A stretch of 64,000 nt of DNA, taken from Ptychodera flava (taxonomy: Eukaryota > Hemichordata > Enteropneusta > Ptychoderidae). Shown here in pieces: positions 6,179-64,000 of the stretch. Each line of letters starts with the position of its first letter. Position 1 is the first letter of the stretch. The notes beneath the pieces are model-generated. The model saw only the letters and a list, made by a program, of their open reading frames with translations, was not told where the DNA came from and did not search any database. The translations under genes were made by a program, and so were the position numbers. The stretch lies in the NCBI RefSeq assembly GCF_041260155.1, contig NC_091930.1, forward strand, positions 40,423,523 to 40,487,522. The letters are read 5' to 3'.

Positions 6179-6644
6179 TCAGCTATTGCAAAGAGCCTTA
6201 AGTGCCCACAGAGAATCAGATTCTGGCTGCAACAGTCATTGCCATGTGTATGAATACTCGAATTAAGGAAATATCGCCTTTCTACTTTTAAAATGTTCCT
6301 TTATCTTGCACGCCTTTCCTGTTCTTCGTCTAATTTAAGTCTTTTAAGTGTTTTTATAATATTATAATATATAATATATTTTAATTCTATGCTCACTCAA
6401 CTTTGAAAATAAAATCTTGATATTAGTTGTTAATTACAAATAAAACACAAGCAAATACAGAAACACTTGCACATGTTAATCACATCCTTTGCTGAACATA
6501 CCTTTCATGGCCATTCTCTTGGAACGGTCTGGTTCTTGAAGTCCTCGAATAACTTTGTGAAATGGGTCGGGGTAGACTTGTTGCGAACGGATGGCTAAAA
6601 TAGTATTAAAATCATAACATTAAAAGCTTCAAGTCGAGATAAAA

Positions 6645-6684
<40 letters not shown>

Positions 6685-8857
6685 ATATATGATGAAGCAG
6701 TAAAACACTAGACTGATAGATCTGCGCATACCCATATTCAACCATGTTATGACATTTCTCATAAATTTTAATTAAATCATCACGATTATGTGCAATATTA
6801 ACTCAAGCATAAAAATTGTATAAACATAATCCTCCATTAACGTTTTTCATCTAGCAATCCAAACAACATAATCAAGAAATATCATACCTTCACTTGGAGA
6901 CTTGCAAGTGACAATTTCCATTAAAATTATGCCCACTCTGGATGAAAAAGACAAATTTGTAGAATGTTATTATTGTGTAGTTTTAACTGCTTTGAGAAGA
7001 ACAAAACATTTGCAGTTGTATATATATCTTAATGAGAAGAGGATTCATCCCTTTTCTCGTGCAAATGCTTTTTCCTCAAGAGTCCAGGTATTTATTGGGC
7101 CACCGACTGAAATTACAATGATAATAATGAATAAACATATGTACAAAATCACAGAAAGTGCTGTCCTTCTCAACCATGTTACCAAGACACTCACATGAAA
7201 CATTCCGTCTTCTCGTCATAGCTCCCTTCAATCGCAACGATATTATCAGAAGGCATATACTCTCTGTTTTTGCCTTTAAGATATCTAGCTGCCATTTCAG
7301 GTTTACCACAGTAAGCGAGGTCGTACATCTAAGGATGAAAAAAAGACGAGATTAAGTTTTTGCTGGTAAATATCTTTGTAGCATATTTTACACGAGTTTC
7401 TTACGCAGGAACCTGTATAGTATGCTTTGTATTTTTCAAGTTAGACAATCAAGTGAGAAAAGAACTATAACAACAAACATCGGAATGGTATATTCTCAAA
7501 AACATAATTGTACAATGATGTAAAGCGCATTTAATGCACGAATATTTGAAACCAAATACCTTAACTCTCATGTCTTCTCCAACAAGGAATTTGTTGCTGC
7601 TGATTTTCCCCAAGATGAGAGGAATGTCTGCGTCGTGTAACATCTGCACGCATTCGCATAAACTTAAAGCTAGCTTCCGTTTGTCTTCCAAAGAGAGCCC
7701 CGTAAAGTTTACCCTCAGCATCTGTCGCAAGGACTTGTGTTTTACGTATTCCATTACAAGCAAATGTGTGCCTGTAAATAATAAACGAATGCATTTATTC
7801 CACTAATCCAACAGAGCAATGCAAATGACAAAAATACCCAGCAAAAGCTCGAGAAAATATCCTCGCGTTTAAGCATATTCCCTTCCTTGTAATGATCCTT
7901 GTAATATATGTTGTTCATTTAATTACCACTTACGACTCACAGACACAAAGTGGTTTAAAATTCTCTTCAGTGTTTACGCGTAATATTTTATGACAGGTAC
8001 AGCATACCATGAGTGTGTGCGTCTATGAGTGTCTGCGTGAGTTTCTCTTTGAAAAGTGTACATAAAAGTGTACGACATACATGCCATGGTTGCTTCATCA
8101 ATATCTTATACAGTAATATCTTAGGGGATTTTCGTCAACAAGAGCATTTTAATTAAACAAAATTCGTGGTCTAATCTCTTTTTGCGATTACCTACCGTTG
8201 GCTTGGTCATACACAATGCCAAACGTTTTCACACAGTTGCTCCCGGAAAATGAAGTGATTTTGTTGTAGCAGTTGAAGAGACTTGTAGCACCATCAAATC
8301 CCGATGTACTTGTAATAAACAAAAGTGTCATAAAATGTTTTAACGATCACCATTTAACAACACAGAACGAACGGGGCAGCGGATGATGATTATTGGTGAA
8401 TAAAATTAGCATTCAAAAGCCTATACGTTGGAAGCGGAGATTGACCAAAGACAGTGTCTAGATTAACCAAAGTAACTTAAGAGGAAAATATACACCTATG
8501 TAGAGCATGAGAGACTGTTATTTTCAGCTTGAGAGTTGAGAGTAGAAAATATTTTGTATGAAATTTGAGATTTGTCTACAATATCGGGCATTTACAATTG
8601 TAGGAATTGCTCGTCTCTCTGTTTATGATAGGAATTTATCATAGATTTGCCCGTCATGCGTGTTGCTTTCAATATGCAATCGATCACAAGCGGCCTATTG
8701 TGACTATGAAAAGGCAAACCTGCGAGGGGTGCCAAAGTCCTTTACAGCAACATCTGCGCCATTGTACTTTGCTCTGTGTATACCCCGTCGGCTGTGAGTC
8801 CAACCAAGTCTTCTGTAGATAAGTGTCTGCCATCAACTTCATGATGAACTGGTCCTC
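6179..8857 (-). CDS. Pseudokinase module, MLKL-like (about 7 exons)
   Basis: Kinase-fold landmarks appear in order. The exon 8,720-8,857 has YNGADVAVKDFG, with the ATP-binding lysine of VAVK kept. The exon 8,196-8,308 has NCVKTFGIVYD. The exon 7,560-7,771 has LLVMEYVKHKSLRQML and then LILGKISSNKFLVGEDMRVK where an active kinase has HRDLKxxN. The exon 7,195-7,328 begins MYDLAY where DFG is expected. The exon 6,888-6,937 has GIILMEIV (subdomain IX). The exon 6,502-6,594 has QEPDRSKRM (subdomain XI). GKIxSxxFLV in place of HRD is the pattern known from MLKL, so catalysis is unlikely. The glycine loop is poor. A two-base surplus near 8,771-8,781 and an unreadable activation-segment exon ending at 7,106 break the frame. 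The last exon, ending LCNS-stop, is tentative. Another TKL-group pseudokinase is the alternative. Confidence 0.72.
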
Positions 8858-11800
8858 CTACAAAAAGAAAAGGACCCAAAGGCGAAATGTCACTATTGGA
8901 TATAAACAAGCAATTTATATGTAAATTCAAGTGGCTTTTTCTACTTGAAAATTATACATCATCGAAAAGAATTACTTTTAACAATCGCTTGCAGAACCAC
9001 TTTTTGAAGAGAATTATAGTTTATATCTGTGTAACAGCGCAAAATCAGATCCTTCTTTGCCAAAGAGATAGTTACCGCTCAACGTACGCGTACGGTATTG
9101 AATTTCATCAAATGTTGACGTAATCATTGATGGGATAGGTTACTTGCTTTACTTTATGTAAGAGCTGTCTGTCTGTCTGTCTTGATTGAAAGGCAACTTG
9201 CGCAATATCATGTCACAATTCTTCTCCAACAATTGAGTTTCCTCTCTATATGATAAACTGAAATGCGAATTGTTTTTTATTAGTTAATTACTGTACATTT
9301 TTCCACGGTATATGAATTAAAATTGTTGCTTACTTTTCGTTCCAGTGCCGCCCATACACAGCAACGTTGTACGCCGTTCTTCCATATTTTCGTTTTGTTC
9401 TTTTCCTCTGCATATTTTGCTTCAAGGTCACGTATCGCGTTTTCGGCTTGCTTGAGGTTCTGTTCAAGGACCGCCGTTTCTCTTTTGCCATCTACGAAAC
9501 ATAATTATTTCATGTGAATCATCACTACGGATCTGTTCTTAATGAGTATTTACAGCACCACTTATCTGAAACGATTATGTGCGTCATACGATCTCCTGTC
9601 ACTGAAGAGACACCTATCGTTCATACTGCCGTTCATTTTACTTACTGACTTTCAGGTCACTCATCGAGTTTTGGACTTGCTGTAGCTCCTCTTTCAGGTC
9701 CTCTTTCTCGTTTTTAACTTGATTTAGTTCCTCTATCAGGTTCTCTGTTTGTCTTAGGGCTTGCTCCAGTTCCTCTTTAAGGTCCCCCGTCTCTCTCTGA
9801 GCTTGCTGTAGTTTCTCTCTCAGGTCCTCGTTCTCTATCTCACTATCTCTCTTCTCTCGTTTCAACCATTGCGCTGGGAAAAATATACAGTTAAAATCAA
9901 ATCTTATAATTAAAAAAGATGTCGAATACGTTTTATATTTTATTCGTGTGTTCGTATTTGTCTGTGCAAACCAATGTCTTCTAAAACTTTTCAATCTCTG
10001 GGGTACATTTTTGCTTGAGTCTCACCCATTCATTGTTCATGCGTTCGTTATATCGGCCTCACTAATTACTTAAAGTTCACTTTTTCTTGTTCTCTCTTGT
10101 GTCAATTTCGCTTTACCATTCCCTTGAAATAGTCATGTCAGTACTAAGCATAGCTTTAAGAGTTTTCATGATCACAGTGAAGTCAGCTATGTCAAATATA
10201 TCAGATGTCTTGAAAACATGGTATTGATAACATTTAACGATGCAATATGCAAATAGTATGACTCCATCAGTGGAGATAAAGCAACGTACATGTATCTTAT
10301 GATGCCTTGGCATATCTAATCTTTACATCTATCTTTACATAGTTTTACGAAATACTGACCTGAAAATATGACCAATCAACTGCACTGAAAATGCTTTCCA
10401 GCAGATACTAAAACTAAGACACATTGATACATGATATCCTGATGTGTATTTACCTAACCCGAGATTTTTAGAAATCACTTTGTCGCGCGTTTCAAGATGA
10501 TGCATACTTATTATTTGTCTTTTTATTCCCACAGACAAATATTCATAATTAGCATATACCATATTCTGATCAATATCACTGACACAGGATCCTGTTGCTT
10601 TATGCAAATGAAGTGTATTGATTTCCAAGCAAATAGCAACTTCATTTTCTATTATTTAGAACTGGTGAAAAACACAATCTATTGAAAACATTGACCACTG
10701 TTTTAGTTAGATGATGTCGGCAGGGTCTTTTCTCGGTTTCAATTTTTTACTATAGTTCACCCCTGTTTGAAGTTGGCGCGAATCAGTGATTGAAATGATG
10801 TTTGAAATTTGTGGTGAGAGGACAAATGTATTCGTCAAATAGAATTTAACAACCAATTTCAGATGACAGCATGAAAACTATATCTATTTCCACTGCAGAC
10901 ATTTATTTAGTATTAGTGTCTACCTACCGTAGTCCGTCTGATCTTTCAAAATCCTTTCGTAGAGGTGAATTCTTTCTGCAGCTGATCATACCATTGCTGA
11001 AGCTCGGATATTTTGGACTGTTGATTCTCACACTTTCTCGATAATTCATCAACTTCACCCTCGATTTCTTTCTTTTCAATTGCAGTTTTTCAATTATTTC
11101 TTGTTCTAATGAGTTCAAAAGTAGCGATCAGAATCTGACTACCGAAATACAGGTGCCAAAACGGAAAGTAATACATAATAATTTGGCTGCTTGAGCGACA
11201 CGCTCTCCCTGAAATTGTGCTTGATAATATCGTTGAAGTATTTTGACATATGTTTCTTACTATTATCAAAATAAAAGTAGTAGGAAATTGTAGTCAGTGA
11301 ACGTTGGTGAACATGAACAAATAAAAGCACTATTTGTAACTCTAGCATAGTGAATTTTATCATAGTTACCACGATTATTGTCTTCGTCTTGTAACTTTCC
11401 AGGTTACCCAACTGAGCCCGAAGCTTGTCGTTGTCTTCTGCGCTTTTGCTAACTCACGTTCTTTGCGCTCCGCATATTCCCCGAACTGTTCAGATTTTTC
11501 TTTACTGTCCGCTGTATGCCTTTCAAAATCCAGTACTAGGCGACATAAATAATTAATACTACATAAGTTTTCATATACCTAAAGTTTGTATACAATAGTT
11601 GGCACACAATGGTATTCTAAGTTGGTGTGAGTAGATGAGCTGTAAAAACCATGGATGAAAAACAAGACAAGTATTGCTGCTTGTATTAAAAATTGAAATT
11701 TCATTACCAAATATGTGCAGCCTTTTAGAGTTTTCCATTGAACTTTTATTGCGAAGCCCGGTTTTACTACGTCTGTAAATCAAGTGCAATGTGAAATCAT

Positions 11801-14800
11801 TATCCTCTTCCAACACCCTAACAAGCTTAAGTCTGTGGCATCAATTACTTTTGTGTTAATGTTTGATTCCAGTAAACGATGAGCAGGTGAATGAATGCAA
11901 TAAGAGAATGAATAAATTAAGGGATGGCTGACTGACTGACTGACTGACTGACTGATTGATTGATTAATTGATTGGTTGATTGAATGAATGAATGAATACA
12001 AAACTGAATGCATAAATGAATGCATGAATCACTCGCAACAATAAATGAGTCGATGAAATAATAAATTTATAGACATGTTATGGATGATGGCTCGGAAACG
12101 GGAATGATGAATGGATAAATACATTTTATAAGTCATAATAGGTTGATCAGTACATTATCACATCACATCATTACATGCATAGAAGTACCAATACTATAAA
12201 CGGAAATGTAAGTGAATTTCTGATCGGTCAACCACATTTACCGTTAGAGCTGTGCTTTAAATATATCAAACGGATACATGCATAGTGATTATTCACTGTT
12301 AATTACCAATATCTTTTATTTGATCTTCCAACTGACGAACTTCCATCTGCAGTTTCTGTATCAAAGTCTCTTTGTATTCGCAGAGACTCTCTGATTCCAT
12401 CAGCATTTCTTGTAACCGTTCAATTTCTTTTGTCTTACTTATCAAAGTATCTTTCAGGTTTTTCTTGGCAAGGAAATACTTTTGTCTGTAGTTCTTGCTT
12501 TCTGCCTCCGTATCTTGTGCTGAAAAGATGTAAAATGTTATCAGATTAAGACTCTAATTTAAACTTAAGCGACAAAAAAATTGCCTGTTGATATATTTAA
12601 CTACAAAGTTGACACTTTTTCTTTCTTCTACCCACTTCTAGATTTCCTTTGTAGTTTCGATAACATTTCCCTGTATTTTAGTAAAATGGATGTGGTATTT
12701 GACATAATAAAATAACAAGAAGCCGTTTTCATTTCGTTTTCATTTCATATCTTTTTCACCTGAATTTTCGCTGCCATCAGTATCGGTCCCTGAAGATGAA
12801 GCATTGTCTGTTTCCAAGTCCTAGTTCAAAAGAGAGAGAAAAGGGGACACTTAAGTTTTCTCACGGTAGCTTTTTCCTCTTCGAATGTATTAATGATTTG
12901 GATATTATCTGCGAAAGGTATTTAGTATGGAGGGCCTAGGGCGACAGGTACAACTCATTGCTATAAGTAAGAATTGCTCTGGTATATAATGTGAAGTAGT
13001 TTACACAATCATGTGCTCATTGTAAAGCCTTGTAGTCATCAATCAAACGCAGGATTTAAGTGCACAAGTTTACAGACATTTCAACATGCACCACCCTACT
13101 CAAAAGAACGGATTTTGATTTTTTAACTTGTGCAATCGATCCAACGAAAATTGCAAAACATAGCCATATGCCTACAAGTTATCTTTCAGAAATGCAATTG
13201 AGACTTAATCTGGATAATTAAATGGATGTAGTTATAGGGAAAATATCATGAAGGCGTAATTTTACAGCTTAAATCTTACAATACGAGAGAAAAGTGTGAA
13301 AATCGAAATATGCTTCCATCGATCTAAACAACACACACACAAACACACACATAACACGTACGCTTTATTTGGAAACTATGCAAACTGCATAAAAAACATT
13401 ATAATTAATAACTTGTCAGGCCCTTTTGAAATGTCTCTAACTTTATCGAATACTCGTCTCTTATCACGCGATTGATTTTTGTTTCATTATACGAGTTGTC
13501 CTGAATGTTAATCTTCATGGCCAAACGCTTAAAAATTACTTTAAGTATAATCAGATTTCACTCTTTCCTCTCTTGCAATGAAATGATAGGGAAAATTTAT
13601 TTTTTTTATTCCGCCCTCGTGTTCGCACGAGTCAGGGTGATGGCAATACACTCAGATCCCTTATTTGAGAGTATACCCAGATAGTTTGCTGCTTTTGCGC
13701 ATATATGTCGCAATCATCGGAGCAAAAAAAGAGATCAGCAGATATATCAGGGATATTCATACCTTTCATCAACAAAGAAATTGTAGGGCTCGACTTGCAA
13801 AGGAATCCCATCCAGCTGGTGTGTTTGCAAAGAACGTTGCTGGTCACTAAATGACAAGTAGATAAAATTCATTTAGGAGAGAAACTCAAGATAAAATATT
13901 TCTCACCAAGCTCGAAGAATGACATCGCCAACAGAGTGCTACAATGTTTATGTAGATAACTTCTAAAATACTATCGTCTTATTTATTGTCATTTTTACTT
14001 ATGTTCAGAGAAGAGCTTCATCTTTAATTATATCGAGTGGTTAGTTTCTTATAAAGGACATTCAGCACTTGATTTTAAAGTACGTATAGCTATATGAAAG
14101 AGAATAACTTCAGAAGAAAGTAAAAGTGTCCAAAATGCAGGTTTTATGTCTTTAAACTACTTCTAGACCAATAAGATCGGTGCTTTTCTCGAAAGGTTGT
14201 TTAGAGAGCTAAAGAAGATAGTTCGGTTGGAAATAGTGTTGGTCTCTTTGTTTGAATTGCAGCTCATCAGCACTCAAAGATAGACAATGGGCTAAAAGGA
14301 GATTTAAGAGGTGAACAGGACATTCATTCATTCAAAAATCAGATCAGCGTGGCAGAATGTGAAGTAATTGAGTTTTAATCCATTTAGTTATGAGGCCCAC
14401 CAGAAGTGTATGAAGGAAATTCGATTTTTGCTACGTAACCACAGGAGCTGCTATTGGGGTCTTTGTTCAACGATTAGATGGGTTTCCCAGATCATTTTCA
14501 GTTTCATTAGAGACATTAAAATAGTTTATTTTGCTTTTGGCTCTGTCACGTATACTGGAACCGGTTAACATATTTTTATCCAGTATTGGCATATGCATCC
14601 CGCCAAGTTGTCAGTTTTGATAAAATCACTATCGATTTATTGTTACTGTGGGCGTGACCCTTTTTGCTAGGGAGATATAAGTAGATTTTAAATTACCTAG
14701 AGCAACCGTAATCATATTTACTTTTTCAAAAACAATTTTGACAAACGTCTGATAGTTTAGGCTATTTTACTCCTTCAATTATGTATTGCAATGGGTTTAA

Positions 14801-16453
14801 GAGATCGATTGAATCCAAATTCCAGACCCTGCCTGTCTGCGGGCATTTTGTTGCCTGTGAGAATATACGAAACTGCAAAAAGTAGGTAGTCGGTCAACCA
14901 TATGTGACGAGGACAAATCTAATCCCGAAATAACCTTTTCCTTGAAAACCTAAACTTTCTAAATAGACTAAATTTGGCAATGTGAATAAAAATGAGCTGA
15001 ACGAAAATGAGATATTGCTTCGGAACTGCAGGCTGGATCATTTTCTCCTTGGCAAACTACACAGGGGCATGTATTCTAATTTTTTTCCAATTCAAATCTA
15101 TCCGGCCTGGAGAAGAAGATTTAAAGGTTTTCATGGAAATGCAATAAAACTTGGGGAAATTTTGTAGAATCAAAAATTGCCGTAGAACGCCAAGTTTAGT
15201 GATTTGTATAAGTCAAACATCAATGAGGTTTATAAGCAAACATATGCTATGTGCAATTTTGAAGTAGATTTGCTTTTTTAAATAACAATTGTTGGCATAA
15301 TTTAAGACAGGAGGCTAGTTATGTGAGCGATCACAATTTGCTAGGTCACGTGCACAACTTTACATGTCTGGTATGTCTGTCATGCCTGGCAAGTTCGGGG
15401 AGTTTACATGTATATGCTACGATTTCTCAATTTAGTTTAAAAATAATTTATGGTAGAATATATGAAAAATAAAGGTAAAGAAAGTAAAGAAAAGGCAAAA
15501 GTATAAGCAATGGGGCCCCAAGCCTTTGAGCTTTGGTCCCAAAATGACAATTTGATACTTTGCTCCTGTCACGCTGCTTTATGAAATATGATATATTCCG
15601 GTTAGGACTCTCTTCAGAATAGTAAAATAAATACCTTCATAATTTTCGAACTGGATTACCGCTTCTTTTGTGTCATTGTCTAGATGGATGTGTTCCACAT
15701 CACCTCCGCCGACAGCCGGACGATTGAAGTACAATTCAAGCGCTTCCTGGTCGATTCTCTCGTCAATATTTTTAACATGGACAATCGTTCTGCAGAACAC
15801 TCGCGTAACGACTACATTAGGAAGACTGGTCTGGATACGATTTCTGATCGACGTGAAATCTACAGAGAATTAACGACAATTAAATGTTATTATCGTGCTA
15901 TCAATACTTTTTGAAGTGGAAGAAAACAGTGTACCAAATGTTGACACTTTAAGATAATCAGTGAACTAAAAGAATGGATCAAAGTATATATCTCCTATAT
16001 GTATTCTTGAAGGATTAAGTTAAAATATTCTCGATTATTATTGTTTTGTCGCAAGTAGACATAAAGAACACAAACCTTTAATTTTCTCTGCACAGGTAGC
16101 TAATACTGAGGTTTCACTTATCCACTTTAAAGTTATCTTTACGTTGCGTAGTTCTTTTGTTGCTTTTAGTTCTTTCATAACGTCGTCAGTTGAGGCACTC
16201 CGCAAACCCATAATCAGTAGTGAACGCTCGTCTTCTCGACCCTTGGCTAAGAACTTTGAGGTGAATTTTTTCACGGTGAACCCATACTTTTTCAGGCAAT
16301 TTGCCTCAGATAGAAGACGATGGACAGCTATTGCGAGTTAAAAAAGAAGACAATCATAAGTCGTAGTAATCGTAAAATGGAAATATTTATATACGTCAAA
16401 TAAATTGCATAATCGTTACATGAATGTTATTATTTAATGTTAGTGATAATAAA

Positions 16454-16511
<58 letters not shown>

Positions 16512-19500
16512 AACAGAGAGAGAGAGAGCTTGATATAATAGCTTTTAAATAATAGTAAGATACTATGGCCTATGAATGTACTATTAATGTTAAATATGAC
16601 CTGTGAAGCGTGATAATTGGGAAAATGTTAATACGGCCCTTTATTATTTTACTCTGTTCGTTAGTGTATTATGTCATGTTGAATATTGTCACTGTGCACA
16701 ATTGGAAACTACTTTGAAGAATGTAAGTTAGATTTTGGTCCTACTATTTGTTGTCACTGCAATATGTGGCTTTGCTGAGGAGTGTACTATAAAATGACTA
16801 CCTCCCATGTCAGGCTAGTTCATCAAGTGTAAACATAAAACGTAAAAGCTAAAGGTCAGAACAGTAAACTCCGGTACTAATAAACACATGACTTGCCTGA
16901 CATGGCATGTTGGTATGATATTCTAATATTTTGTCGACTACCTCTCAGTGGCGATATGCCTAACACATTTTTGTTTAATTATGTGTTTTTACCTCGATGT
17001 GCACATTTGTGCTCGCCCGTGTCTCTTGTACAATTTAATCTGACGCTCGACAGATGTTTATTCCTTTCACTGAGCAAACTGTAGTGTTATTTTTGTCTAA
17101 GCTCATGATTATTTAACAATTTTTGACATATTCGAACTGATGTCATTCAATCTTGATACAAGAACAGTCACAATACTGGTATTTTACACGCATTTTACCG
17201 TTTGACATGATACGATTTATGACGACCGACTTTCAAAAACTAATATTTATGTTCTATGATCTTACGCTGAAATGTTCATCGGCTATTCATCCGTTTAGAT
17301 TAATATAACATGGAATCTTAACGGTATCAAGGGATCACTGATAATACTATACTAGATAGTTTACTCAATTAATTTTATGAAAAAGAGTAATACTTAATTG
17401 ACTCTGACTTACTTTCTTCTTTTGCGAATTGCACGACTATATTCTTCTCCCTGAAGATATACCGGATTTCTGTGCCGATGCCTGTCGGATCATGTGACGT
17501 AAGTTCTGTAATCAATTGGCGGATGCTTACACTCCTTCGTCTATCCCTCTGATTCGAATGATCTGGATGCATATGGGTCCGCTCGTGTCATCTACACATG
17601 GAGAGCGGAGGGAGTGTAAAAACAAGTAGCCTAACCATTGCTACACGGAAATAAGCTGTCATTATACTGTGGCAATATATAGCTTGATCATGTTATGTGT
17701 ATAACAATAGCACTCATCGCAAAGTTAAAGATGTGGACGGGATATAACATTAACTCCCATTCTTGATAAATATCACTTTTGTTGCTGTGCCGTAAAATAT
17801 TGCTGCCGGGCAGCGATATAAGAATGATGTTTGTTATGTTCAGATCCACAAGACGTGTATAAACTATTTTCTTTTTTTTATTAAATTTTGCAACCATGTT
17901 GCTCTGAGATATCAATATGTACGTAAATGGTTGTTTCCATAATAACAGAATCGAACTTTATATACGGCTACTTGGTGGCCGTTCTCTTTCGACTTTTCAT
18001 GCCTAGAGTCATTACTTTGACATATTCGAACTGATGTCATTCAATATAGATACAAGAACAGTCACGATGCTGGTATTTTCACATTCATTTTACCGCTTGC
18101 CATGCTACGATTAAATACGGTGGCTGTTATTGTGATTGTTTTCGTTTTTGTACTCTCCTCGTACATGGACGGACTCCGCGTAAACTCTATACATATATGG
18201 CATCTTTTGTCGTTAAACAAACAAGCGTGCCCGATTAGCAGCCATCCTGTGATGATATTTTTATTATGTCAGAACAGGTAATCTTCAATTAACCTTTGTA
18301 TTAGGACAATGTGCTGTGATATCTATTTCAGTCTGTGTTGTGAAATAATCGATTTACGGTGAAAATATAGCAATAACGTGTTGCAACCGTTAACACAACA
18401 AACTTTGCCGTACATTTTAAAGTGCCTCCATATCAACAGCTAAACTGCAACAAGTCAGCAAAATGGGGAATCTCTTCGTAAGTCGGGTTGTCACACGCTG
18501 AACTACGGCATTATTGAAAGACGACATTTAATTTTATGTAAAAAAAACGAGAAGGCCTAGCTAGTGACGGAAAATAATTAATACACGCCATTTGTAATTA
18601 ACATGGGTAAAACGACAGCGAGATTAATTTAGGAAAGTACTTAAAAGCTGTGATTGTCACCTTTGATCAGAAAAAGTAAAATAAGAAACAATTTTCAACA
18701 TATCAATCTTGTATGCAGGTAACTGTTTATTTGACCGTTCATTTATCTGCCCCGGATTGGTGTTAACGAGTTATTTCTAACTCCTTTACCGCGACACTCT
18801 AAAAGTCGCTCATCTTTAGACTTTTTTTGAACGATGCCACAAACTTTTTGATATGCTCTAACGGTTCTTTCAGAATCTGATTCTTTTCAAATACTACCAA
18901 GAGCGTTTCAAAACGCGATAGCGTTACTTAACCTTATCATCAAACAAAAACGCGCAATTGACGCCATCTTGAAAGACCTTGCACCGATACATAGCAGAGT
19001 TGTCGCGCGACACAATCTACTGTAATCAGGCAGTCTAACGAAAGTCATTATCTTTTAAACATTTAAGGTGTCGCGTACATACAATGTAGATTTGTGTACA
19101 CTCAAACGCCAAATGTTTATGTTCAGATAGCTCCACACACAGCTGCAAGTGTGAACATCCTGAGGGACTTTAAAGGCCAAATAAACATTTCAGTATGAAC
19201 ACAGAAATATTTTTGTTTACCTTTCGATGTGTCGTTAATCCCTGTGCCTTCGGAAGGTGCTTTTGTACTTCTCGCCATCATTGCATGTTCAAAAGGTGCA
19301 CGCAAAGTTAGTAATGAACACACTGTGGGAGACTAAAGATATAGTTGGCTTTGCATGCCTTGTGATTGGCTGACTCTGTCGGCGCTGTATGTCGGTGTTG
19401 TATAACAGAAACTTCTGGAAATGATGACGTGTCAGACTTGACCAAAAAAGGCCGATGAGTCATTTGGGATTTTCCATGAGTGGTTTTGTAAACCTTTACA

Positions 19501-21915
19501 ATCTAAATTGATAACAAAGGTTAGATTTGGCAAATATACTTAATCTCAGGTAGACTACTTGTAGAAGACATCGGATAAAGGCATCATATGTAACACCAGT
19601 TTGAGTCTCATTCAAAGATGACATGTTGAATTTTAACATGCCTCTTAAACACCAAACGAAAGAAATTTCCACTGATGCAGGGGTATGAAAGACTGAGATT
19701 TTAAAATACGTGATTAAAATCGTGATAAGCGAAATTAAAATGCCTCTCATTCAAACCGTAAGAATTTTGTTGTCAAGCAAAAACGTCGTTTTGTTAATGG
19801 TATATAATTTGCAAATTTCAGAAATTTAGACAAAGTCAGACTGGAGTTCAGAAAATTCGACAAAGTCAGATTGGAGTTAATCGTTTGGAGATATTGCAAT
19901 AGGAAAAAAAGAGAAACCAGGAAAAAGGATGATTTGTATACATTTGCATAATTTTAACTTGTTTCTAACCCAAATTACGACTTCCTGACTAGAACCCAAT
20001 CAATATTTCAATCTTAGGTTAACAAATCATTTGAAATTGAATGAATATTTGCCAAAACCCCCGTGATTTTGAGCAAAATTCGCGGTGTTATATGCAACGC
20101 TACTTTAAGCTACTGTTTATCACTTCCGTACGATGATCAAGAAATTGAAGTGCCTTTTTATTCTTTTACCTGTGCTGCTTTGAAACTACTATACCTTTCA
20201 ATCCCATCAAAGGGGCGGAATAAATCAATAATATTATAAAAGGGCCAGTCTAAACGTCGAGTTAATAAAGTCTTTTGCGTTTTTATTCTTGAATTGTTTT
20301 CCATTTCGTTTACTTTTACGGAAATGTTCAGTATACCAATGAAGTTAAAATGTAGCTGTGAACTAGTTATTCACAAATAAAAATATATCATCCTTATCTT
20401 TACACATTACATTTTCATGGCCGCTCTTGTCTTTTGATGAAGTGTTAGATATCTCAACCAACGCCATTTTCGCTTGGTCACTTGAAGATTGGAACACACA
20501 GTTGCTTCTGGTGCAATACACAGCGATGGCTTCTGCAATATATATTTTCAAATACATACCACAGCGGCCTACACCGTGCGAACCACAAGTGACTGTATTT
20601 GAAGACACCTCCGAAACGTTACCAATGTGCGATGAACACATACAACAGTTTTTAGGGCGGTCCTCCTTTCTGGTATTTTTCGATGAAAAAATGAATATTC
20701 TAGTTTGTTTTGCCTTTTGTTAGTTTTTGAATACACGAATTAAGAGTGTCCATTAGGTGTACGGATCACCTCTGGACGCAGCTTTTCATAGTTTCTCTCC
20801 TTTCATCTGTGCTGGTTGTTGACTTTGTCAAGTTAATCCGATTGATAATCTTGTGACAACGTCCACAGATTATTTATTCCCCCTTGCTTGTTTTACCGTG
20901 TCAGGCAACCGAACGCATCAGATAATAGACGCAACACAGTGATCAAACTTCGCATAGGATCGTCAAATGACAAATTCATGACACAGCGAACGATAAAAAG
21001 AAGTCTTTGAAAAACCAGTGCTTACATAAGACCACGACACCAAACGATCGTTAATAGAAATCTTTATTGACAATACAAATATAATATAATCGCAATCATA
21101 CCAATCCATAATCCAATAACACTAGGTCAGAATTCGTAAGACAATAGATGTAAACATAGACACAAAACAGCACAGAACAGATAGTAAATAGACGGTACAC
21201 AAACAAAGTCAAATTCATGAAAGAAAGATATTTGGACCTCTGGCCAAAAGACCAAGAAGTGATGTCAGGTGTTTAATCATAATCATAGTCAAACATGTTC
21301 AAACAAAATAAACAATGGCAACAAAAAATCTTTGCTTAGACCAGGACATCCCTACTCTCGTCCCTATACCTGGAGCCAGACATGTAAACAGCCCCTATGG
21401 TTCCATCCTAGAATAAACAGACGACTACATGATGCAATGTTATCAGTGGATGAAGATGTTCAATTTTAGTGCAAGGAGTGCTGAAGGTTTAAGATATGCA
21501 CTTGGCCTTATTATGATCACAGAAATATGTTTAAATAGTGAATTAGCCGTAACACTTATTTTTGAAATATAATTAAATTAGCTACTTTTGAGAAAAATGT
21601 TTTATAACGTTGCCTGCAGTCCAAAAGGGGTGGTCGTCGATACTGCGCTAGTGTAACTTACTCGTTTACAAAAAACTATAATCTAGATGCATCAAGTCAA
21701 CATAGCTTCAACATTTAAAATTTAGAATATCCATGATTACCAAACATGTTTTAACTGTCGTCAATCACAAAAGTACCATAGATACAGTGTAGGAATCCCT
21801 GCAGAGTTCCGACGGCCCCCACCCCCCTTAACTGAGTTCTACAGTGCGGCATATGCTCAATGCACTAATAAAGCAGTCTTCCTATTGGTTCTGCATCAAG
21901 GAGATGTACTTAAAT

Positions 21916-21980
<65 letters not shown>

Positions 21981-24674
21981 TTTCCCCTTCTCTATAATTA
22001 TGTTATTACTTACCAAGTAAATATTGTCATACCTTAATTAAAACAGTCGATATCTCTTCTCTTTATGAAGATATTCAGAAATAAGAGTGAATAATCGTGA
22101 CATCACCAAGTCAAATATTGATATGAAATATGATCATTTTATTGGGCAAAGATAAGGAGACATGTCATAAAATTGTGTTTTTCGAACACAAACAAGTATT
22201 TTACCGTAAATATTAGCATCGAGAGATTAGGTCTCGGTTAAGATATTCATAAAGATTGTTTTGCGCACAACAAGTTGAATCGCAGTTTTTAGAAAGCAAA
22301 CGTTAGATTAAAAGTCATGATTGACAGTACTGTAAATTTCCCATAACTCATTGCGATTTATATCCTCAGAGATTCCCCAGAGAAATCTACCAGGTCTCCC
22401 ATGTGTAGACAAATTCATAGACTAGTTGTAAATATTCTGAAAACGTACATTTAAGAACACCATTCTTCTCAAATATCATTTTAAATGATTTGGAAAATTA
22501 TGCAAGATTGAGAGAGGAGATAGAATTTTTGTAAAATTTTCCACTCATTGTGTCTTCAGCCATACAGAATAATTTGATGGAAAGTAGGGAGACCAGTTGC
22601 ACCTGTTTTTTTAAACAAAAGGATATTGATTTTTCCAATGGAAATGACGAAAGAAATTTGCATTTTAAGTTTTCTCAGAGAATGACATCTTCAGTTCGTC
22701 ATAACTTGCTGCCTAAAAGTATGGCATTTGTAGTACCTGCAGAACATGACTTCCATGGTTGTTTAATTGTTGTTTGAAACTTTTGCTGAAATTTCTAAAC
22801 GTACTTTTACTGGATATTATTTAACAATTATTCTGATGCTGAACATTAGTGCTTACATGCAGAACTGAAAAAGTTTTTAGAAAAGTAACCTTCATGGATA
22901 CAAATCAAAGAGAATTGTGGGTAATTTATTGTACTGTTTGATGGTTTACAGTTAACGTCGCTAATAGTGAACATGTTAGATAAAATTAACGCCCATGGCT
23001 GTCAAGATTGCTTTCCTACACATTTATGTTACCGATGTAAAATCATACAAACAGATTTAAGACATCCTCTATGGTTGAGAGAAAGACGTTTAAGATATCT
23101 AATGTTCAGCGATCGAATACGGTTGCAACCGTAGGCGACCTTGTGTCGCCCACTGCTACACTTCTTTCCATTATCAGCCGGAAAGAGGCAATTCAATGTA
23201 AAGACTTCAACCCTCTCAACGACAGCTCTCTGGGTGTTCCGCTGGCACTCTCTCTATAGAGACCCTTGCGTGATTTAAAGTTTTGCTTTCGATCCTTTTT
23301 TTCAGATTGTCGAAGTCTGCATATAAATAATACAATAAGTTGTTAGATGTGATGGGAGGTAGTCTACTTCTTAAAGTGTCACACTGATGCTTATTATATA
23401 TACCGAAGCTTATTCTTCAAGCAAAATAGACACTTCCTGAGATATTCCCCCTCGTCTCAATCGTTTCTTTCGTGTCTATTCATATCAAGTAATTGAAACG
23501 GTAATAACTTGTCATCACCTCTTTGTGACTTATCCCCCATGAATCATACTGCAACTATTACATCATTTCGGCAGTTCAATAATTGCATAGTGACAACGCT
23601 AACAATGATGATAGTGGTGTTTTCTTTTGGTATGCAATGTTGTGATTGCTTTGCAGAAAAGAACATGGATAAGTAAAATTCTATTGATATCGAATGCTTA
23701 AGATTAATTAATGCTTTTAATTTAACCATTAGAGTTATTATTTCAGACATATTTACCTTTGACGTCATCAGCGAACTTGAAAGATACAGATACTGATTCC
23801 AAAGTTGGTGGGTTTGGCGTCAGTGCTCTTCCTTCGAGATAATATTCAATCAGTTTCGAAGGAGTATCTGGAGCTACATTTCTCAGGATAAATCTCCTTC
23901 TGTCCAGTTGTTCAGATTCTTCGTCATCTGAAAGACAATTTTTACAGACTGAAGAAATTCGACAGGGCCACATTAACAGCAAACCTGAAAACTGTATAAA
24001 ATGGAGTGATATTCTTACTTACTACGTATATCACAATTGTCAAATTTTTGCGTGTGGTTCCGGTTAGTTGTATGGTTTTCATGTCAAGATACCTTATCAG
24101 AAACACTTTCTGAAGAAGGTTTCATGGTATTCTCGCGTTATTTTTAGTTCTAATTGCGATGTTGATAGTCTACACTATGAAATATATAAATCAATTATGA
24201 CAGTGGTGGAGTATAAAAATTAAAACACTCAGTGCCATTTGGCTACAGGTTCACACATACATTTTCATCGCATCATGACCAACGTTAATATTTCGGAGTA
24301 TTCGGACGGGATCTAAAAGATTAAGTTAAACATCATACCTTCAATATCATTTTGCAAGTATTTCCATTTTGTAGTCTTTTTCCTCGTGAATAGTTTCAGC
24401 AGATAACGTACCCTCGAATAAGACGGAAGAGTCTCTGCAAAATGACAATGTACACATACCATTTAACAGCGAAAATACTGAACAAAAACCTATGCAGTTG
24501 TCACAAGTGTTTGTCTTGGCGTTTTTCTAAAATCATACGTTAAACACTTTAAGAAAACGTGTCTTATATTTCTGGGACTAAATGTCTTCGATATTAATGT
24601 GTGAAATGTACAGAAAAGATCGACACTTTAGTACAATGTTGTTACTGACCTATGGACTGCTGCTCACCGTCCAT
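6179..24674 (-). CDS. Multi-exon gene: RRM-like domains, coiled coil, MLKL-like pseudokinase
   Basis: Gene-level entry; modules are listed separately. The start is an ATG at 24,672-24,674 opening MDGEQQSI, followed by a GTCAGT donor. Most exon junctions agree in phase (nearly all phase 1), which supports one continuous gene: exons 24,650-24,674, 24,339-24,434, 23,757-23,927, 20,500-20,532 (tentative), 19,221-19,322, 17,413-17,591, 16,076-16,327, 15,635-15,859, 13,763-13,846, 12,760-12,820, 12,307-12,519, 11,370-11,535, 10,928-11,105, 9,646-9,873, 9,334-9,491, 8,720-8,857, 8,196-8,308, 7,560-7,771, 7,195-7,328, one ending at 7,106, 6,888-6,937, 6,502-6,594 and a tentative last exon 6,179-6,222. 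The 13,763 to 12,820 junction does not match in phase, so a small exon may be missing. Several exons carry single-base frame breaks. The N-terminus is of PARP14 type and the C-terminus resembles MLKL. It could instead be two adjacent genes. Confidence 0.65.
6650..6680. repeat. (TA)n microsatellite
   Basis: A run of about 15 TA units in the intron after the subdomain IX exon of the pseudokinase module. Confidence 0.95.
9334..12820 (-). CDS. Acidic linker and long coiled-coil module (6 exons)
   Basis: The exon 12,760-12,820 encodes an acidic Ser/Thr/Asp linker (DLETDNASSSGTDTDG). Five further exons, 12,307-12,519, 11,370-11,535, 10,928-11,105, 9,646-9,873 and 9,334-9,491, are rich in E, K, Q and L with heptad spacing. 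Examples are EIERLQEMLMESESL, KISELQQWYDQLQKEF and DLKEELEQALRQTENLIEEL. The exon 9,646-9,873 shows internal repeats of about 14 residues (EDLREKLQQAQRETG / DLKEELEQALRQTE). The length, roughly 270 residues, implies a rod used for oligomerisation, with no sign of the four-helix bundle of vertebrate MLKL. Exons 11,370-11,535 and 10,928-11,105 change frame near 11,440, 11,397, 11,085 and 10,965, while the coiled-coil pattern continues in the new frame each time. Confidence 0.7.
11931..11997. repeat. Tetranucleotide microsatellite (CTGA, then TGAT, then GAAT)
   Basis: Three successive tetranucleotide runs, each a one-base variant of the last, lie in an intron of the coiled-coil module. They create a long open frame of INQS-type repeats that is not a gene. 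Confidence 0.9.
13763..15859 (-). CDS. RRM-like domain (third), PARP14/PARP10 type, 2 exons
   Basis: The exon 15,635-15,859 reads IVHVKNIDERIDQEALELYF, then a glycine-rich turn (GGGDVEHIHLDND) and AVIQFENYE. The exon 13,763-13,846 completes the fold with THQLDGIPLQVEPY. The signature V-x-V-x-N-I, A-LELYF, GGG and L-G-x-x-L-x-V-x-PY matches the RRM-like domains of PARP14 and PARP10. The junction is phase 1 to phase 1. In the second exon the frame shifts by one base near 13,824, where an A-run seems one base short; both sides of the break fit the domain. No separate RNA-binding residues can be asserted, since RNP motifs are weak in this family. Confidence 0.75.
16076..16327 (-). CDS. End of one RRM-like domain and start of the next (single exon)
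   Basis: This exon is open throughout 252 bases and phase 1 at both ends. Its first part (VHRLLSEANCLKKYGFTVKKF) is the second helix and last strand of the preceding RRM-like domain. Its second part begins a new one with RSLLIMGLRSASTDDVMKEL, then VKITLKWISETSVLATCAEKI. The neighbouring exon starts DFTSIRNRIQTSLPNVVV, which closes this second domain. Splitting RRM folds across phase-1 exons in this way matches the rest of the gene. Domain identity rests on strand/helix pattern and context more than on strong motifs. Confidence 0.65.
16457..16528. repeat. (GA)n microsatellite
   Basis: An almost pure GA run in the intron between the exons 17,413-17,591 and 16,076-16,327. Confidence 0.95.
16801..16907. 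mobile_element. Small inverted-repeat element (CCTGCCATGTCAGG family), intronic copy
   Basis: The element is bounded by CCTCCCATGTCAGGCTAGTT on the left and the inverse motif GCCTGACATGGCA on the right. Related pairs occur at 25,142-25,233 and 26,703-26,834, and single arms at 106-121 and about 26,909-26,930. Internal words (GGTCAGA, AATAAACA) are shared with the 25,142 copy. The size and ends suggest a MITE-like non-autonomous element; no target duplication was resolved. Confidence 0.55.
17122..18106. repeat. Pair of about 90-bp direct repeats
   Basis: The segments 17,122-17,211 and 18,016-18,106 share TTTGACATATTCGAACTGAT and most of the following 70 bases (GATACAAGAACAGTCAC, CTGGTATTTT, CATTTTACCG). 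They differ by scattered substitutions. The first copy is in an intron of the RRM-pseudokinase gene, as is the second. No terminal inverted repeat is visible, so this is either a local duplication or two copies of an unknown repeat. Confidence 0.8.
17413..17591 (-). CDS. RRM-like domain exon (first strands)
   Basis: The exon opens DDTSGPICIQIIRIRGIDEG (first strand) and continues VSIRQLITEL (first helix), GTEIRYIFREKNIVVQFAKEE (strands two and three). It joins in phase to 19,221-19,322 upstream and 16,076-16,327 downstream. The two halves are in different frames, changing near 17,530; the exon is one base shorter than the phase pattern demands, so a base is probably missing there. Confidence 0.65.
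19221..24674 (-). CDS. N-terminal leader and first RRM-like domain (5 exons)
   Basis: Exon 1 (24,650-24,674) encodes MDGEQQSI. The exon 24,339-24,434 is basic (LLKLFTRKKTTKWKYL). The exon 23,757-23,927 holds an acidic turn, then RRRFILRNVAPDTPSKLIEYYL and LESVSVSFKFADDVK, an RRM-like start. These three join in phase with good GT/AG sites. A 33-base exon at 20,500-20,532 (AIAVYCTR, third strand) and the exon 19,221-19,322 (LLTLRAPFEHAMMARS) also fit the phase and would finish the domain, but the small exon is tentative. Alternatively the gene starts at one of the methionines in 19,221-19,322 and the first three exons belong to a separate short gene. Confidence 0.55.
19823..19878. repeat. Short tandem duplication of about 28 bp
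   Basis: Two adjacent copies of a unit containing GACAAAGTCAGACTGGAGTT, with one or two differences. It is intronic. Confidence 0.7.
20990..21470. other. Unassigned dispersed-repeat-like stretch
   Basis: Read on the minus strand this A/C-rich stretch ends in a segment with CAATAAAG, as the 3' end of a non-LTR element might. The plus strand has a 66-codon open frame at 21,269-21,469 with no recognisable domain. It lies inside a long intron of the RRM-pseudokinase gene. Confidence 0.2.
21627..21826. mobile_element. MITE-like element, diverged copy of the 34,788-35,022 family
   Basis: Starting GGTGGTCGTCGATACTGCGC and ending CAGAGTTCCGACGGCCCCC, it has imperfect inverted ends. The interior aligns with the reverse complement of 34,788-35,022: shared words include TCTAGATGCATC, ACATGTTTTAACTGTC and TAGATACA. 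The copy is older or more diverged than the one in PARP-A and sits in an intron of the RRM-pseudokinase gene. Confidence 0.75.
21917..21975. repeat. (CT)n microsatellite
   Basis: A pure CT run of about 29 units, intronic. Confidence 0.95.
23033..23280 (-). other. Unassigned GC-richer open stretch
   Basis: A minus-strand frame stays open for about 80 codons here (containing RAVVERVEVFTLNCLF), and the plus strand has a 62-codon frame from 23,071. The stretch has more CpG than its surroundings, including the palindrome CGGTTGCAACCG. I recognise no family. It lies in an intron of the RRM-pseudokinase gene, so it may be an unrecognised exon, a repeat, or nothing. Confidence 0.2.
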
Positions 24675-32596: not shown

Positions 32597-33237
32597 GTGT
32601 TATAGGATTTATAATCATATTTATCAGGCATTCTTTTGAACAATGATATTGTCTCCTTAGGTTATTTCGAGTCTGAAAATTAGTTGACTCATTTAGAATA
32701 ATGTACGAAAAGTCCAAACAGTGGATTCGAATCATCCCGTGATTTCAGATTGTTTCCTTTTGCAGCAATAAGCTGAAGTCCATAAAATATATAATCGTAA
32801 CCGAGACAACGAAAAACCCAACAAGAAAAGAAAGCAAAAAAGGGGGAAATGCAAACTTAATGTGTAAGACAGTGGCGAATGTATTGTATTAAGCTCATAT
32901 AATCCGAAAAGTATGATACGAGCACTGCTATTTGTGTTGATTGTCCAGTGTCATTGTGCCCTTCTTTGTTCTATCGTTTCCCAACAAAATTTTTACCATG
33001 TGCTTGTTGTTGTTTTTAATGAGCGGATGACATTATCAAGTGCATGAATATTTTGGACGAAATCTATAAGTGCGAAGTAATTATTCGTGTTCCAATTTGC
33101 TAATAATCATAAGATATCGATTATCTTTACCTGCAAAACAACAGAAAGTCCAGAGGATATTCATAAGAGCAATTTGAAATAATCAAACAGTTGCGAGTGG
33201 CTCTCGTTTATAATAAATGTCTACATCATTAAATGAA

Positions 33238-33523
33238 TTATTTAAACGTTATAAGATATTCTGGATAGGCCATAGCATCGTAGAAAATGACAAATATGGT
33301 CGGGTTTGCAGTGTTATCCACGACACTGTCGTAATAATCAGTAGAATTGTTTGGATTCTCGGATGGAGAAACCAGCATCTCGCTTCTACCCCGGTGTATT
33401 CGCCAGTCAGCACTTTGCAGAGGTACATGTGCTTGTGACCGTTGGTGTCGCGTTGTGAGAACCTATCCGCTGATGAGTAGTTAGCGTTGAGGGCGGAGTA
33501 ACATCCTCGTCCGTACACAGCAG
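33238..33523 (-). pseudogene. PARP-A last catalytic exon
   Basis: VYGRGCYSALNANYSSADRF opens the exon (the usual phenylalanine of YFA is serine), and FVIFYDAMAYPEYLITFK-stop closes it in a different frame. The one-base shift lies where PARP-C reads EYTQGRRD. Confidence 0.8.
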
Positions 33524-33793
33524 CTGGAAGCAAAGAACAATGAACAGGAATTACGTGCAAAAGCACACATAACAAATAAATACAGTGTCTGTAAATATGC
33601 CTCTCGAAGGTCATTGATGCCAATTTCTCACAGTTTTCGCGACACATTCAGTCGAAAGTGATTTGTCATCATGCACTCTAAGTACACAACGTGGAGAGAG
33701 CAAGAGGATGTTCCTTGCTTTGGCTCAGATTGAATAAGTTTGAGTAATACAGTACATTCTCTCCCCATGCCCTATCAGAGCAGACAGCTTAGA

Positions 33794-33851
33794 TGGTTTG
33801 CTTCTTTAGCACCACTTGTCGATATAATTGCTTATTCTGAATTCTTTTTAT
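33794..33851 (-). pseudogene. PARP-A truncated first catalytic exon
   Basis: Only the start of the exon (RIQNKQLYRQVVLKKQT) remains. It runs straight into sequence that in PARP-B and PARP-C lies about 500 bases further on in the next intron, so an internal deletion removed the rest, including the catalytic histidine. Confidence 0.8.
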
Positions 33852-33918
33852 CTAAAAAGCGAAAACACGTTTCAAAATATCCTTTGAATTAACTTGTTCA
33901 AAATGAGGCTCTGATGCA

Positions 33919-34346
33919 TGCATACATACATACATACATACATACATACATACATACATACATACATACATACATACATACATACATACATACATACATA
34001 CATACATACATACATACATACATACATACATACATACATACATACATACATGCATACATACATACATACATACATACATACATACATACATACATACATA
34101 CATACATACATACAATACATACATACATACATACATACATACATACATACATACATACTACATACATACATACATACATACATACATACATACATACAAC
34201 ACACCACAACACATACATACATACATACATACATACATACATACATACATACATACATACATACATACATACATACATACATACATACATACATACATAC
34301 ATACATACATACATACATACATACATACATACATACATACATACAT
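33919..34346. repeat. (CATA)n microsatellite, about 430 bp, PARP-A intron
   Basis: A nearly pure tetranucleotide array with a few slips. It is open in several frames on both strands (IHTY, YVCM repeats), none of them genes. The same intron of PARP-B and PARP-C carries an array at the matching place. Confidence 0.97.
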
Positions 34347-34787
34347 GCTTCCATGAAGGCATACATATAAACTGAAATGCGTTTCCTTTTATTAATTTGT
34401 TTTGTGTTTTTTCGTGTTATCCTGAATTACCTCTACAATTTCTCTCACTGTTGGTAACATCGATATCTTGAATTCATCTGCAATGTTGATATATATTCTC
34501 CCCTCGACCTGATGAGGGACACTTGCTTAACTTCCTCAGAATCATGCATTGGAGCCCAATGCTTGGGAAGAGAAATACCACCTAAAATGATATAAGCTTT
34601 CTTTGTTAATGAAATTTATTTTCCATTAAGTTGTTTGCTTCCTAACTCTAAGCAACCGATCAAAAACTAAAGATAATAATGGACCGATAAAAATATAATA
34701 AGTGTATGACTTTGTCAGCTACACATATAAGCATTGTAGAAACCGTAGATGCCCCTTGAGAGACCAAATGGCATTCTTAACTAATAC

Positions 34788-35022
34788 GGATATAGTCGTC
34801 GGAACTGCGCTCAAAGGTCGTATGGGACCCATACGACCCATGGCAACAATGTATCTAAGGCACAATGGTGACTGATGACAGTTAAAACATGTCTGTCATA
34901 ATCTATCATCGTATAATTTAAACGTTGCAGCTATGATGATGAGATGCATCTAGATATCGTGCACGAAATACATTGTTTGTAAACAAGAAACTCGCACAGG
35001 CGCAGTTCCGACGATTATATCC
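34788..35022. mobile_element. MITE-like element inserted in a PARP-A intron, with target duplication
   Basis: The ends are inverted over about 23 bases: GGATATAGTCGTCGGAACTG on the left, CAGTTCCGACGATTATATCC on the right. TTAACTAATACGG flanks it on both sides (34,777-34,789 and 35,025-35,037; the left copy overlaps the element edge by two bases). PARP-B and PARP-C have an uninterrupted site at the equivalent place (ATGCCATTCTTAAAAAAATA near 56,590). The element is non-coding and has a diverged relative at 21,627-21,826. Confidence 0.88.
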
Positions 35023-36783
35023 CTTTAACTAATACGGTTTCAAGATAATTCACGTATATTATACATTTTAGTGGTTATCGACTTAGTTGCTACATCTGCA
35101 CTTTCAAGCAAATTATTTGTTTTTATTTTGAACCAGATTGATGTCCATTACCTTACCTTCTTTTAAATCTCTTCTTACAGGAACTTTGGACCCGTCCGTC
35201 AAATCGATCTCTTCCATGGAGTTGAAACATACTTGGTATGAACAGTCATCCAATTCAATAAAGGCGTCAGCATTGCAGGCCTTAAACTCTTGCTCGATAT
35301 GACCAGCAAGTTCATCCTCGTACTCCTAAAAGCCATCCTCGTTCCAGTACAGCCAAGCTACGTTCTTTTCCAGCGCCGTTGCTTCAGACACTCGCCTGTG
35401 CTCTTTTTGCATTCGCTTTAGAAACTGGGCTACTTTGTCATTGAGCCTCATGACAGCTTCTGGCATTCCTGTCAACTTGAGTCGACAAACGCGACCTGTA
35501 TCGACTACCTCTACAGATGCCTGCATGTGAGAAACATTAAGTGGAGAAATAACACGGATAGCTAACTCTTGTCTATAAAACAAAGGTGCACACAAAAAAG
35601 AGAAAATGTGATGAACAAAAAGCGAATATATGCGACTGAAAATCTCCTTACCAGTATATTAATAATGTTGTTCACAAAACTGTGATTCAATAAAAGCCGC
35701 AAATAGAACACTTAACTACCAGCGCTATAGTTCTTACTTCCCTGACACCTAAAAACTCCGTAAATTACACATGAATCACTAATTCTCTAGCCTTACCTGT
35801 AATGATGATGCCAGTTCCTTTTTTTGCACCATGTCTCCGTCTGTCAGACCACTTACATCAGAGTCATCAACAACCTTTGGATAACGGACAAACAAAAAGC
35901 CCTTGCTTAATCTCTGAGTCAATAAACAATGTGCTCTAAATAAAGGCATATATTGACGAATCTCACAACCGAATTAAAGGCTACAATTAGAAGATTGTTG
36001 TTAACTTACCTTTTCGATGACATGCTTTTCGGCGTGATTATGAAGTTGTTGAAATGCCGACTTAACATCGTTTTGAGTGCCAGCATAAATGTCAAAGCAC
36101 ACCACAGGAAAAGAATTCATTCCTCCAGAAGCATCTGTATCTTTTCTGTTAAGTTGAGGAACCATGTGTCTCCCTTTGCGTTTTGCAACTTTCCCTTAAT
36201 TACTAAACAACGTCAGAAATTAATCATTTTGTTAGGAAGTGTGGCTGCGACAAAAAGCTTCCGTATGAACGTTTTTCACCATCGTGAGTAATGTACAGGG
36301 TACATATTTATGCACGCTGGCTTTTCCGGTGTAATGACGATCATGGAACTATCGACATTTTCAATTTTTAACTTGATGGTCAAATATGATTAGTAACTAT
36401 TTTGTGTCTATGTATACGGGACTGTCAAGAGGATTTGCATTCTTACTTTTACTTTTTCTATATCTTTAAGTTTGAAGGTTTACGCAATTAAGTCAAGACG
36501 GGTACATCCCTGCAGCTAACTGGTTTTTACTGTGATTTTTTTTTCATCTCGGTGGGAAATTGATGAAGAATTGTTGGATCAGTAAAATGTTATTAATACA
36601 CAACCTCCTTAATTCAGCATTTTAACGAAGGAAATTTTTTGCTGTGAATTAGGTTCTCGGAAACACATAATAGACTCACTGAACTTCCTCTTCAGCTTTT
36701 TCCTCGGTGAGGGATCACAATAATCTTCCATTGCCTTCTTGAATACGTCCATCATCTCTGGGTTGTAGATAACTATCCAAACA

Positions 36784-54691: not shown

Positions 54692-64000
<9,309 letters not shown>

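Follow-up and report, generated by a model that had tools for sequence, protein, structure and literature searches.

A candidate gene joining PARP14-type RRM-like repeats, a coiled coil and an MLKL-like pseudokinase beside a PARP array in Ptychodera flava

The window analysed here is a stretch of 64,000 nucleotides from the hemichordate Ptychodera flava. RRM-like repeats, coil-like exons and kinase exons all lie on its minus strand between positions 24674 and 6301 (exons A to V). This arrangement on one strand had been claimed in a preliminary description of the locus and is supported by Pfam matches and composition. As read from the sequence, the domain types, their order along the strand and the loss of catalytic residues are firm, and equally so is the finding that no four-helix bundle and no macro, WWE or PARP domain is recognisable. 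The chances stand even that the interval 24674-6301 is predicted correctly as one minus-strand gene giving one working protein, in which RRM repeats are followed by a linker, a coil and a pseudokinase.

Layout of the locus

Exons were called by reading the three minus-strand frames and seeking AG/GT borders (Table 1). The splice-site percentiles come from approximate weights. The chosen chain takes the short form of exon K and omits exon L, which gives 20 junctions. Exon A is the weakest of the 5' exons as predicted and lacks homology support. Upstream of exon E the frame stays open as far as 17562, where a weaker acceptor lies (68th percentile), and the 3' continuation of exon K to 11370 is coil-like with changes of frame. 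G+C content is 33-38% across the window (4-kb windows). Around the candidate gene, Pfam gave no match on the minus strand at 24.6-33 kb, on both strands at 1-5 kb or on the plus strand at 6.1-15.6 kb, and only sub-threshold matches, one low-complexity family, on the plus strand at 15.6-24.7 kb.

Table 1. Exons of the candidate gene and neighbouring features, with positions in the window.
Feature	Positions	Strand	Description
Exon A	24650..24674	-	Possible first coding exon, MDGEQQSI; ATG, donor 97th percentile, phase 1 out
Exon B	24339..24434	-	Basic segment, fold unassigned; open, phase 1-1; acceptor 97.0th, donor 99.1th percentile
Exon C	23757..23927	-	RRM-like repeat 1, first half; phase 1-1
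Exon D	23224..23316	-	RRM-like repeat 1, second half; uncertain 3' end, donor 18th percentile, then stop
Possible alternative first exon	19221..19286	-	MMARSTK..., two ATGs, donor 98th percentile, phase 1 out, fits exon E; without homology
Exon E	17413..17505	-	RRM-like repeat 2, first part; phase 1-1; acceptor 90.6th, donor 99.8th percentile
Exon F	16076..16327	-	Last part of repeat 2, beginning of repeat 3; phase 1-1
Exon G	15635..15859	-	End of repeat 3 and RRM4 strands 1-3; RRM_PARP14_3 1.3e-9 unspliced
Exon H	13763..13846	-	Last part of RRM4, QTHQLDGIPLQVEPY; completes RRM_PARP14_3 match; RRM frame discontinuous from exon G
Exon I	12760..12820	-	Acidic/Ser linker, DLETDNASSSGTDTDGSENS; acceptor 99.7th, donor 97.6th percentile; phase continues into J but does not follow from H
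Exon J	12307..12519	-	Coiled coil, fully open; phase 1-1
Exon K	11458..11535	-	Coiled coil, 78 nt in frame to inner GTGAGT donor (97.7th percentile)
Exon L	10928..11105	-	Coil-like, internal frame changes; omitted from in-frame chain; acceptor 89th, donor 99th percentile
Exon M	9646..9873	-	Coiled coil, fully open; 42/84-nt internal tandem repeat
Exon N	9334..9491	-	Coiled coil; phase does not match O
Exon O	9153..9257	-	Short pre-kinase segment, 76 nt from N; in phase with P; acceptor 58th percentile
Exon P	8720..8812	-	Kinase N-lobe: degenerate Gly loop, VAVK
Exon Q	8196..8308	-	Alpha-C to beta-4; both sides in phase
Exon R	7560..7771	-	Hinge to catalytic loop; LGKISSNKFLV replaces HRD...N
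Exon S	7195..7328	-	Activation segment; DLA replaces DFG
Exon T	6888..6937	-	Alpha-F region
Exon U	6502..6594	-	C-lobe end
Exon V	6301..6329	-	Final codons and stop; weak acceptor, 47th percentile
Tandem macro/WWE/PARP array	32600..64000	-	Neighbour, outside the gene; same strand

The pseudokinase, the RRM head and the coil

When spliced, the kinase exons match Pfam PK_Tyr_Ser-Thr at 3.8e-14. The unspliced frame over the exon R region matches a Pfam kinase model at 0.0014, under the curated cut-off. Searched against solved structures, the whole kinase returns MLKL in the top 11 rows (4.4e-12 to 1.7e-9), followed by CTR1 (2.2e-7 and 3.1e-7), others from 1.6e-4 and RIPK1 from 6e-4, all among the best 60 of 325 matches. 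For the C-lobe alone (exons R-V; best 60 of 209 matches), the top nine rows are MLKL (9e-8 to 5e-6), CTR1 follows at 4.5e-5, and two MLKL rows (4m68 and 4btf) rank under CTR1 at 9e-4 and 0.002. With exon R alone and unspliced, MLKL takes the top 7 of 16 rows (0.007-0.011), followed by two short chains at 0.2, presumed to be designs, and by other kinases at 0.76 at least; four other MLKL sequences found in the whole-kinase search are missing from these rows. Since this exon was searched unspliced, its MLKL ranking is independent of the splicing choices. The domain is thus by sequence a pseudokinase closest to MLKL among solved structures, and the MLKL-like pseudokinase of the preliminary description is upheld for the whole domain, the C-lobe and unspliced exon R.

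In the structure-search alignments, the catalytic loop reads GKISSNKFLV here and GKIRSSNFLV in MLKL. The VAVK lysine is retained. At the HRD position the sequence is LGK, where MLKL has HGK, and at the DFG position it is DLA, with the Asp retained, where MLKL has GFE. The alpha-C glutamate is absent by eye. With these changes, catalysis is predicted to be unlikely.

It seems unlikely that the domain is an ordinary fast-evolving pseudokinase of TKL/RIPK type with no particular tie to MLKL, its likeness being explained by shared degeneracy. The scores are low for assigning a family, exons S-V put only two MLKL rows (0.0027 and 0.054) ahead of LIMK1 (0.35) and Aurora (0.59), with further MLKL at 0.7-0.9, and the N-lobe alone gives MLKL, the sole kinase among 13 rows, at 0.8-1.9 only, behind chance matches to lactate oxidase (0.0016 up). 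Such a domain would nevertheless have to account for MLKL chains of several sequences heading the whole-kinase search with a lead of 15 bits over CTR1 (best 60 of 325), and for MLKL also topping the search with unspliced exon R.

The head of the candidate protein has been linked to PARP14 by three matches to Pfam RRM_PARP14_3, obtained with spliced exons E-H (1.1e-17), with RRM4 alone (3.5e-15) and with exon G unspliced (1.3e-9). These agree with the PARP14-type head proposed earlier. Four RRM-like repeats were called and the last one alone passes Pfam; RRM2 alone reaches 0.067, RRM1 alone has no Pfam match and RRM3 alone has no RRM match. Unspliced frames across exons A-E likewise gave no RRM match in Pfam, and exons A-D found nothing better than 0.59 in the PDB. 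In a shuffle test on the repeats, six pairs were compared and two were reported alike. RRM1 aligns to RRM3 with a z of 6.7 (0 of 500 shuffles as good), and repeat 2, taken with part of the stretch upstream of exon E, aligns to repeat 4 with 6 of 500 shuffles as good. The C-D intron also has the same position and phase as the F-G intron. Together, the likeness of RRM1 to RRM3 and the matching introns tie the distant 5' exons to the rest of the gene. A single-sequence AlphaFold2 model of exon G reached a pLDDT of 79.7 with the order a2-b4-b1-a1-b2-b3; that of exon F was uninformative (pLDDT 44).

Macro, WWE and PARP domains went unrecognised by Pfam both in the spliced parts and in the minus-strand frames at 6.1-15.6 and 17.4-24.7 kb, and the minus strand at 15.6-17.6 kb gave only RRM and NID matches. 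KH domains had no Pfam match in the scanned minus-strand frames and spliced parts; those of the PARP14 family are divergent, possibly too much so for Pfam. RING and DTC had no Pfam match in exons I-O or in the minus-strand frames at 6.1-15.6 kb.

Exons J, K, L, M and N are strongly charged and Leu-rich. The best 35 residues of each exon (33-34 for K and N) were compared with 4085 background windows elsewhere for richness in E, K, Q, R, D and L, and the number of background windows as rich was 17 for J, 22 for K, 17 for L, 14 for M and 28 for N. The eight top-scoring background windows printed are simple ER repeats. Pfam returned 14 families on the coil, every one below its cut-off and most of them families of coiled-coil proteins. 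Against solved structures, exons I-O gave five rows, the best at 0.024, with MLKL absent; the coil-like exons precede the pseudokinase, and the MLKL brace was unmatched in this search. Pfam includes a model of the MLKL N-terminal bundle. That four-helix bundle was unrecognised by Pfam in exons A-H, in exons I-O and in the minus-strand frames, where a very divergent bundle is possible. The solved structures compared include full-length MLKL chains, and neither exons A-D nor exons I-O matched the N-terminal part of MLKL among them. Positions 9649-9829 in exon M form a 42/84-nt tandem repeat, and because of this repeat the length of the coil may, as a guess, vary between individuals.

One gene, several genes or a decaying gene

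The preliminary description had reported mostly matching splice phases. This holds at 17 of 20 junctions, a count that is no independent test since exons were picked partly by phase, and fails at G-H, H-I and N-O, while exon L and the tail of exon K break internally. All six junctions from A to G are in frame, D-E only via a weak donor, and so are all seven from O to V, six of which belong to P-V. Several features speak against one gene. Exon D meets a stop and has a weak donor, the acceptors of exons O and V are poor, and RRM1 and RRM3 are without Pfam support. The distance between exons D and E is 5.7 kb. The AATAAA motif occurs in 25 copies on the minus strand over 19 kb, a frequency at which poly(A)-like motifs decide nothing.

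A division into two or three genes is rather unlikely but has a definite form. One or two RRM proteins would end after exon D or exon H, and a separate gene would encode the coiled coil and pseudokinase, or a bare pseudokinase starting at the Met in exon O. Two of the three broken junctions do coincide with module borders, H-I between head and coil and N-O between coil and kinase. Exons D and H reach stops soon after if their donors are unused, two ATGs mark a candidate first exon at 19286, and exon O offers its Met. However, G-H is also broken though both of its halves make up one RRM, which means that a break is no sign of a gene end and does occur inside a coding unit. The N-O intron, of just 76 nt, could hardly hold the end of one gene and the beginning of another, and exon P is without a Met. 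The likeness of RRM1 to RRM3 also argues against a division, although a different gene with a like repeat is still conceivable.

The same breaks could be those of a once-intact fusion gene that is now decaying into a pseudogene, which is judged improbable. This reading would account for the frame breaks in exons H, I, L and N and in the tail of K, and for the weak donor after D. Each of these off-frame parts can be read as single bases short (N also as one too long). Against decay, exons A-G (955 nt) and O-V (829 nt) are uninterrupted by stops or frame breaks over 1784 nt, but openness was itself a reason for choosing them. Breaks of one base are also common in the neighbouring PARP genes, which makes sequence error a live alternative to decay. 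Three-way alignments of the array (2469 and 952 columns) hold 15 one-base deletions in single copies against 5 one-base insertions; of the deletions, copy 1 has 2, copy 2 has 10 and copy 3 has 3, and 7 of the 15 fall in runs of at least three like bases and 8 in runs of one or two. Such gaps resemble consensus error of the deletion type, or decay of copy 2. The array breaks are due either to decay that differs between copies or to a consensus of varying quality, poorest in copy 2. For the candidate gene, consensus error of the deletion type explains the breaks as well as decay does. Frame breaks alone were rejected as proof of a pseudogene, the same type of break being present in the array. 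Doubt about the MLKL label cuts across the one-protein, separate-gene and decay readings.

Proposed mechanism, known relatives and the neighbouring array

If the exons encode one protein, it would carry PARP14-type RRM-like repeats first, then an acidic linker followed by a long coiled coil, and a pseudokinase of MLKL type at its C terminus. In MLKL, dimerisation of the pseudokinase releases the brace helix, which then assembles into a tetrameric coiled coil, as is argued from structures and a model (PMC10603135). By analogy, the pseudokinase here would act as a switch, and a signal on it would turn the coil into an oligomer. The coil would serve as the oligomeriser and gather RRM heads in place of killer bundles. 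The clustered RRM repeats, as output or sensor, could then act as a multivalent scaffold that binds RNA or partners involved in ADP-ribosylation signalling of PARP14 type, beside the PARP array. The protein itself would not be expected to form pores. The single protein, its oligomerisation, its binding of RNA or partners and an immune role are all inferred by analogy. It is possible, though we lean slightly against it, that the pseudokinase-plus-coil switch of MLKL has been detached from its killer domain and re-used to cluster PARP14-type RRM heads, which would wire a switch of necroptosis type to RNA and ADP-ribose signalling next to an expanded PARP array.

One protein of this kind would separate the pseudokinase/coil switch from the membrane killer, two features that jointly define MLKL, and would mean that a switch of MLKL type can serve other outputs. 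It would also connect PARP14-type antiviral modules with control of necroptosis type in a way that can be tested, and would bear on the origin of MLKL. The candidate shares with MLKL a C-terminal pseudokinase with VAVK kept and HRD lost alike (GK), preceded by a helical or coiled segment. It differs in that no four-helix bundle was recognised, an RRM head stands instead, and DLA takes the place of GFE. MLKL is further characterised by its phosphorylation by RIPK3 and by permeabilising membranes. According to one survey, MLKL is present in deuterostomes and among protostomes in rotifers only; a protein was retained there only if both its N-terminal and its C-terminal MLKL domain were intact (PMC11476962). 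A survey demanding both domains would overlook a pseudokinase fused to a different head. MLKL has been dated to after the protostome-deuterostome split in another report (PMC11932488).

The likeness to PARP14 lies in several N-terminal RRM-like repeats, the last of which matches the third RRM of PARP14 (one of four by profile). It differs in that macro, WWE and PARP domains are unrecognised in this gene and present in the adjoining array. One study assigns three RRMs plus eight KH domains to PARP14, and to DTX3L an RRM at the N terminus followed by KH, RING and DTC domains (PMC13224862). On this description, DTX3L is alike in carrying an RRM head of the PARP14/PARP9 circle on an effector other than a PARP, and its precedent makes the present layout a new combination and not a new principle. 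The effector of DTX3L is a ubiquitin ligase, whereas here it is a pseudokinase, and RING and DTC found no match. A likeness to NMI/IFP35 (NID) is suggested by a Pfam NID match of exon G at 4.5e-4, whose 21.1 bits fall short of the cut-off of 25, and by a weak match to a chain of N-myc-interactor (0.19); we know of no kinase in NMI/IFP35 proteins. UHMK1 (KIS) has an active kinase first and the UHM, an unrelated type of RRM, behind it, whereas here the RRM comes first and the kinase last. What the two share is a kinase and an RRM-type (UHM) domain in one protein (PMC9061793). Oyster proteins have been described that join DED-TRADD-N, KH, RRM, macro and ART domains, which likewise recombines PARP14-like modules in the immunity of a marine invertebrate; they end in the ART domain, and the accessible portion of that report mentions no pseudokinase (PMC8195603). 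No protein of the RRM-coil-MLKL type stood among the matches listed from the open-access literature, which is a weak negative.

The neighbouring array has Pfam matches to macro (1.8e-14), WWE (8.8e-9) and PARP (3.3e-6) domains, and its units share blocks of more than 500 columns that are 79-95% identical. The preliminary description had supposed that the array shared the RRM head by duplication, and this did not find support. Pfam found no RRM in the array at 49-64 kb (three of three frames), 39-46.9 kb (three of three) or 32-39 kb (two of three), and the same kind of scan detects unspliced exon G. The head exons found no second place better than 0.17 by tblastn over the whole window. A derivation of the head from the array in the window was rejected, as no RRM was found there where scanned (Pfam, tblastn). 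With a loan of the head from the array unsupported, the tie to the PARP14 family stands.

Several further observations were made in the array. The array copies at 34955-57665 on the minus strand differ in their one-base breaks; in one and the same WWE exon, copy 2 has three one-base gaps, copy 1 has a stop and copy 3 is open. The final portion of the PARP catalytic region is doubled in tandem at 43285-44181 (tblastn 44181-43867 and 43590-43285). A stretch of 0.7 kb at 46811-47499 matches its own reverse complement at 79%, as a palindrome or an assembly fold-back. At the upper edge of the window, 63553-64000 is macro-like by eye (GGALKC..., YHVFCGPW) with a single tblastn match, and on account of this stretch the PARP gene family may extend past the edge. 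Long tetranucleotide arrays lie at 33917-34346, 45078-45392, 55933-56201 and 62832-63434; the first three are of CATA/ACAT type and stand about 11 kb apart, a spacing like that of the array units.
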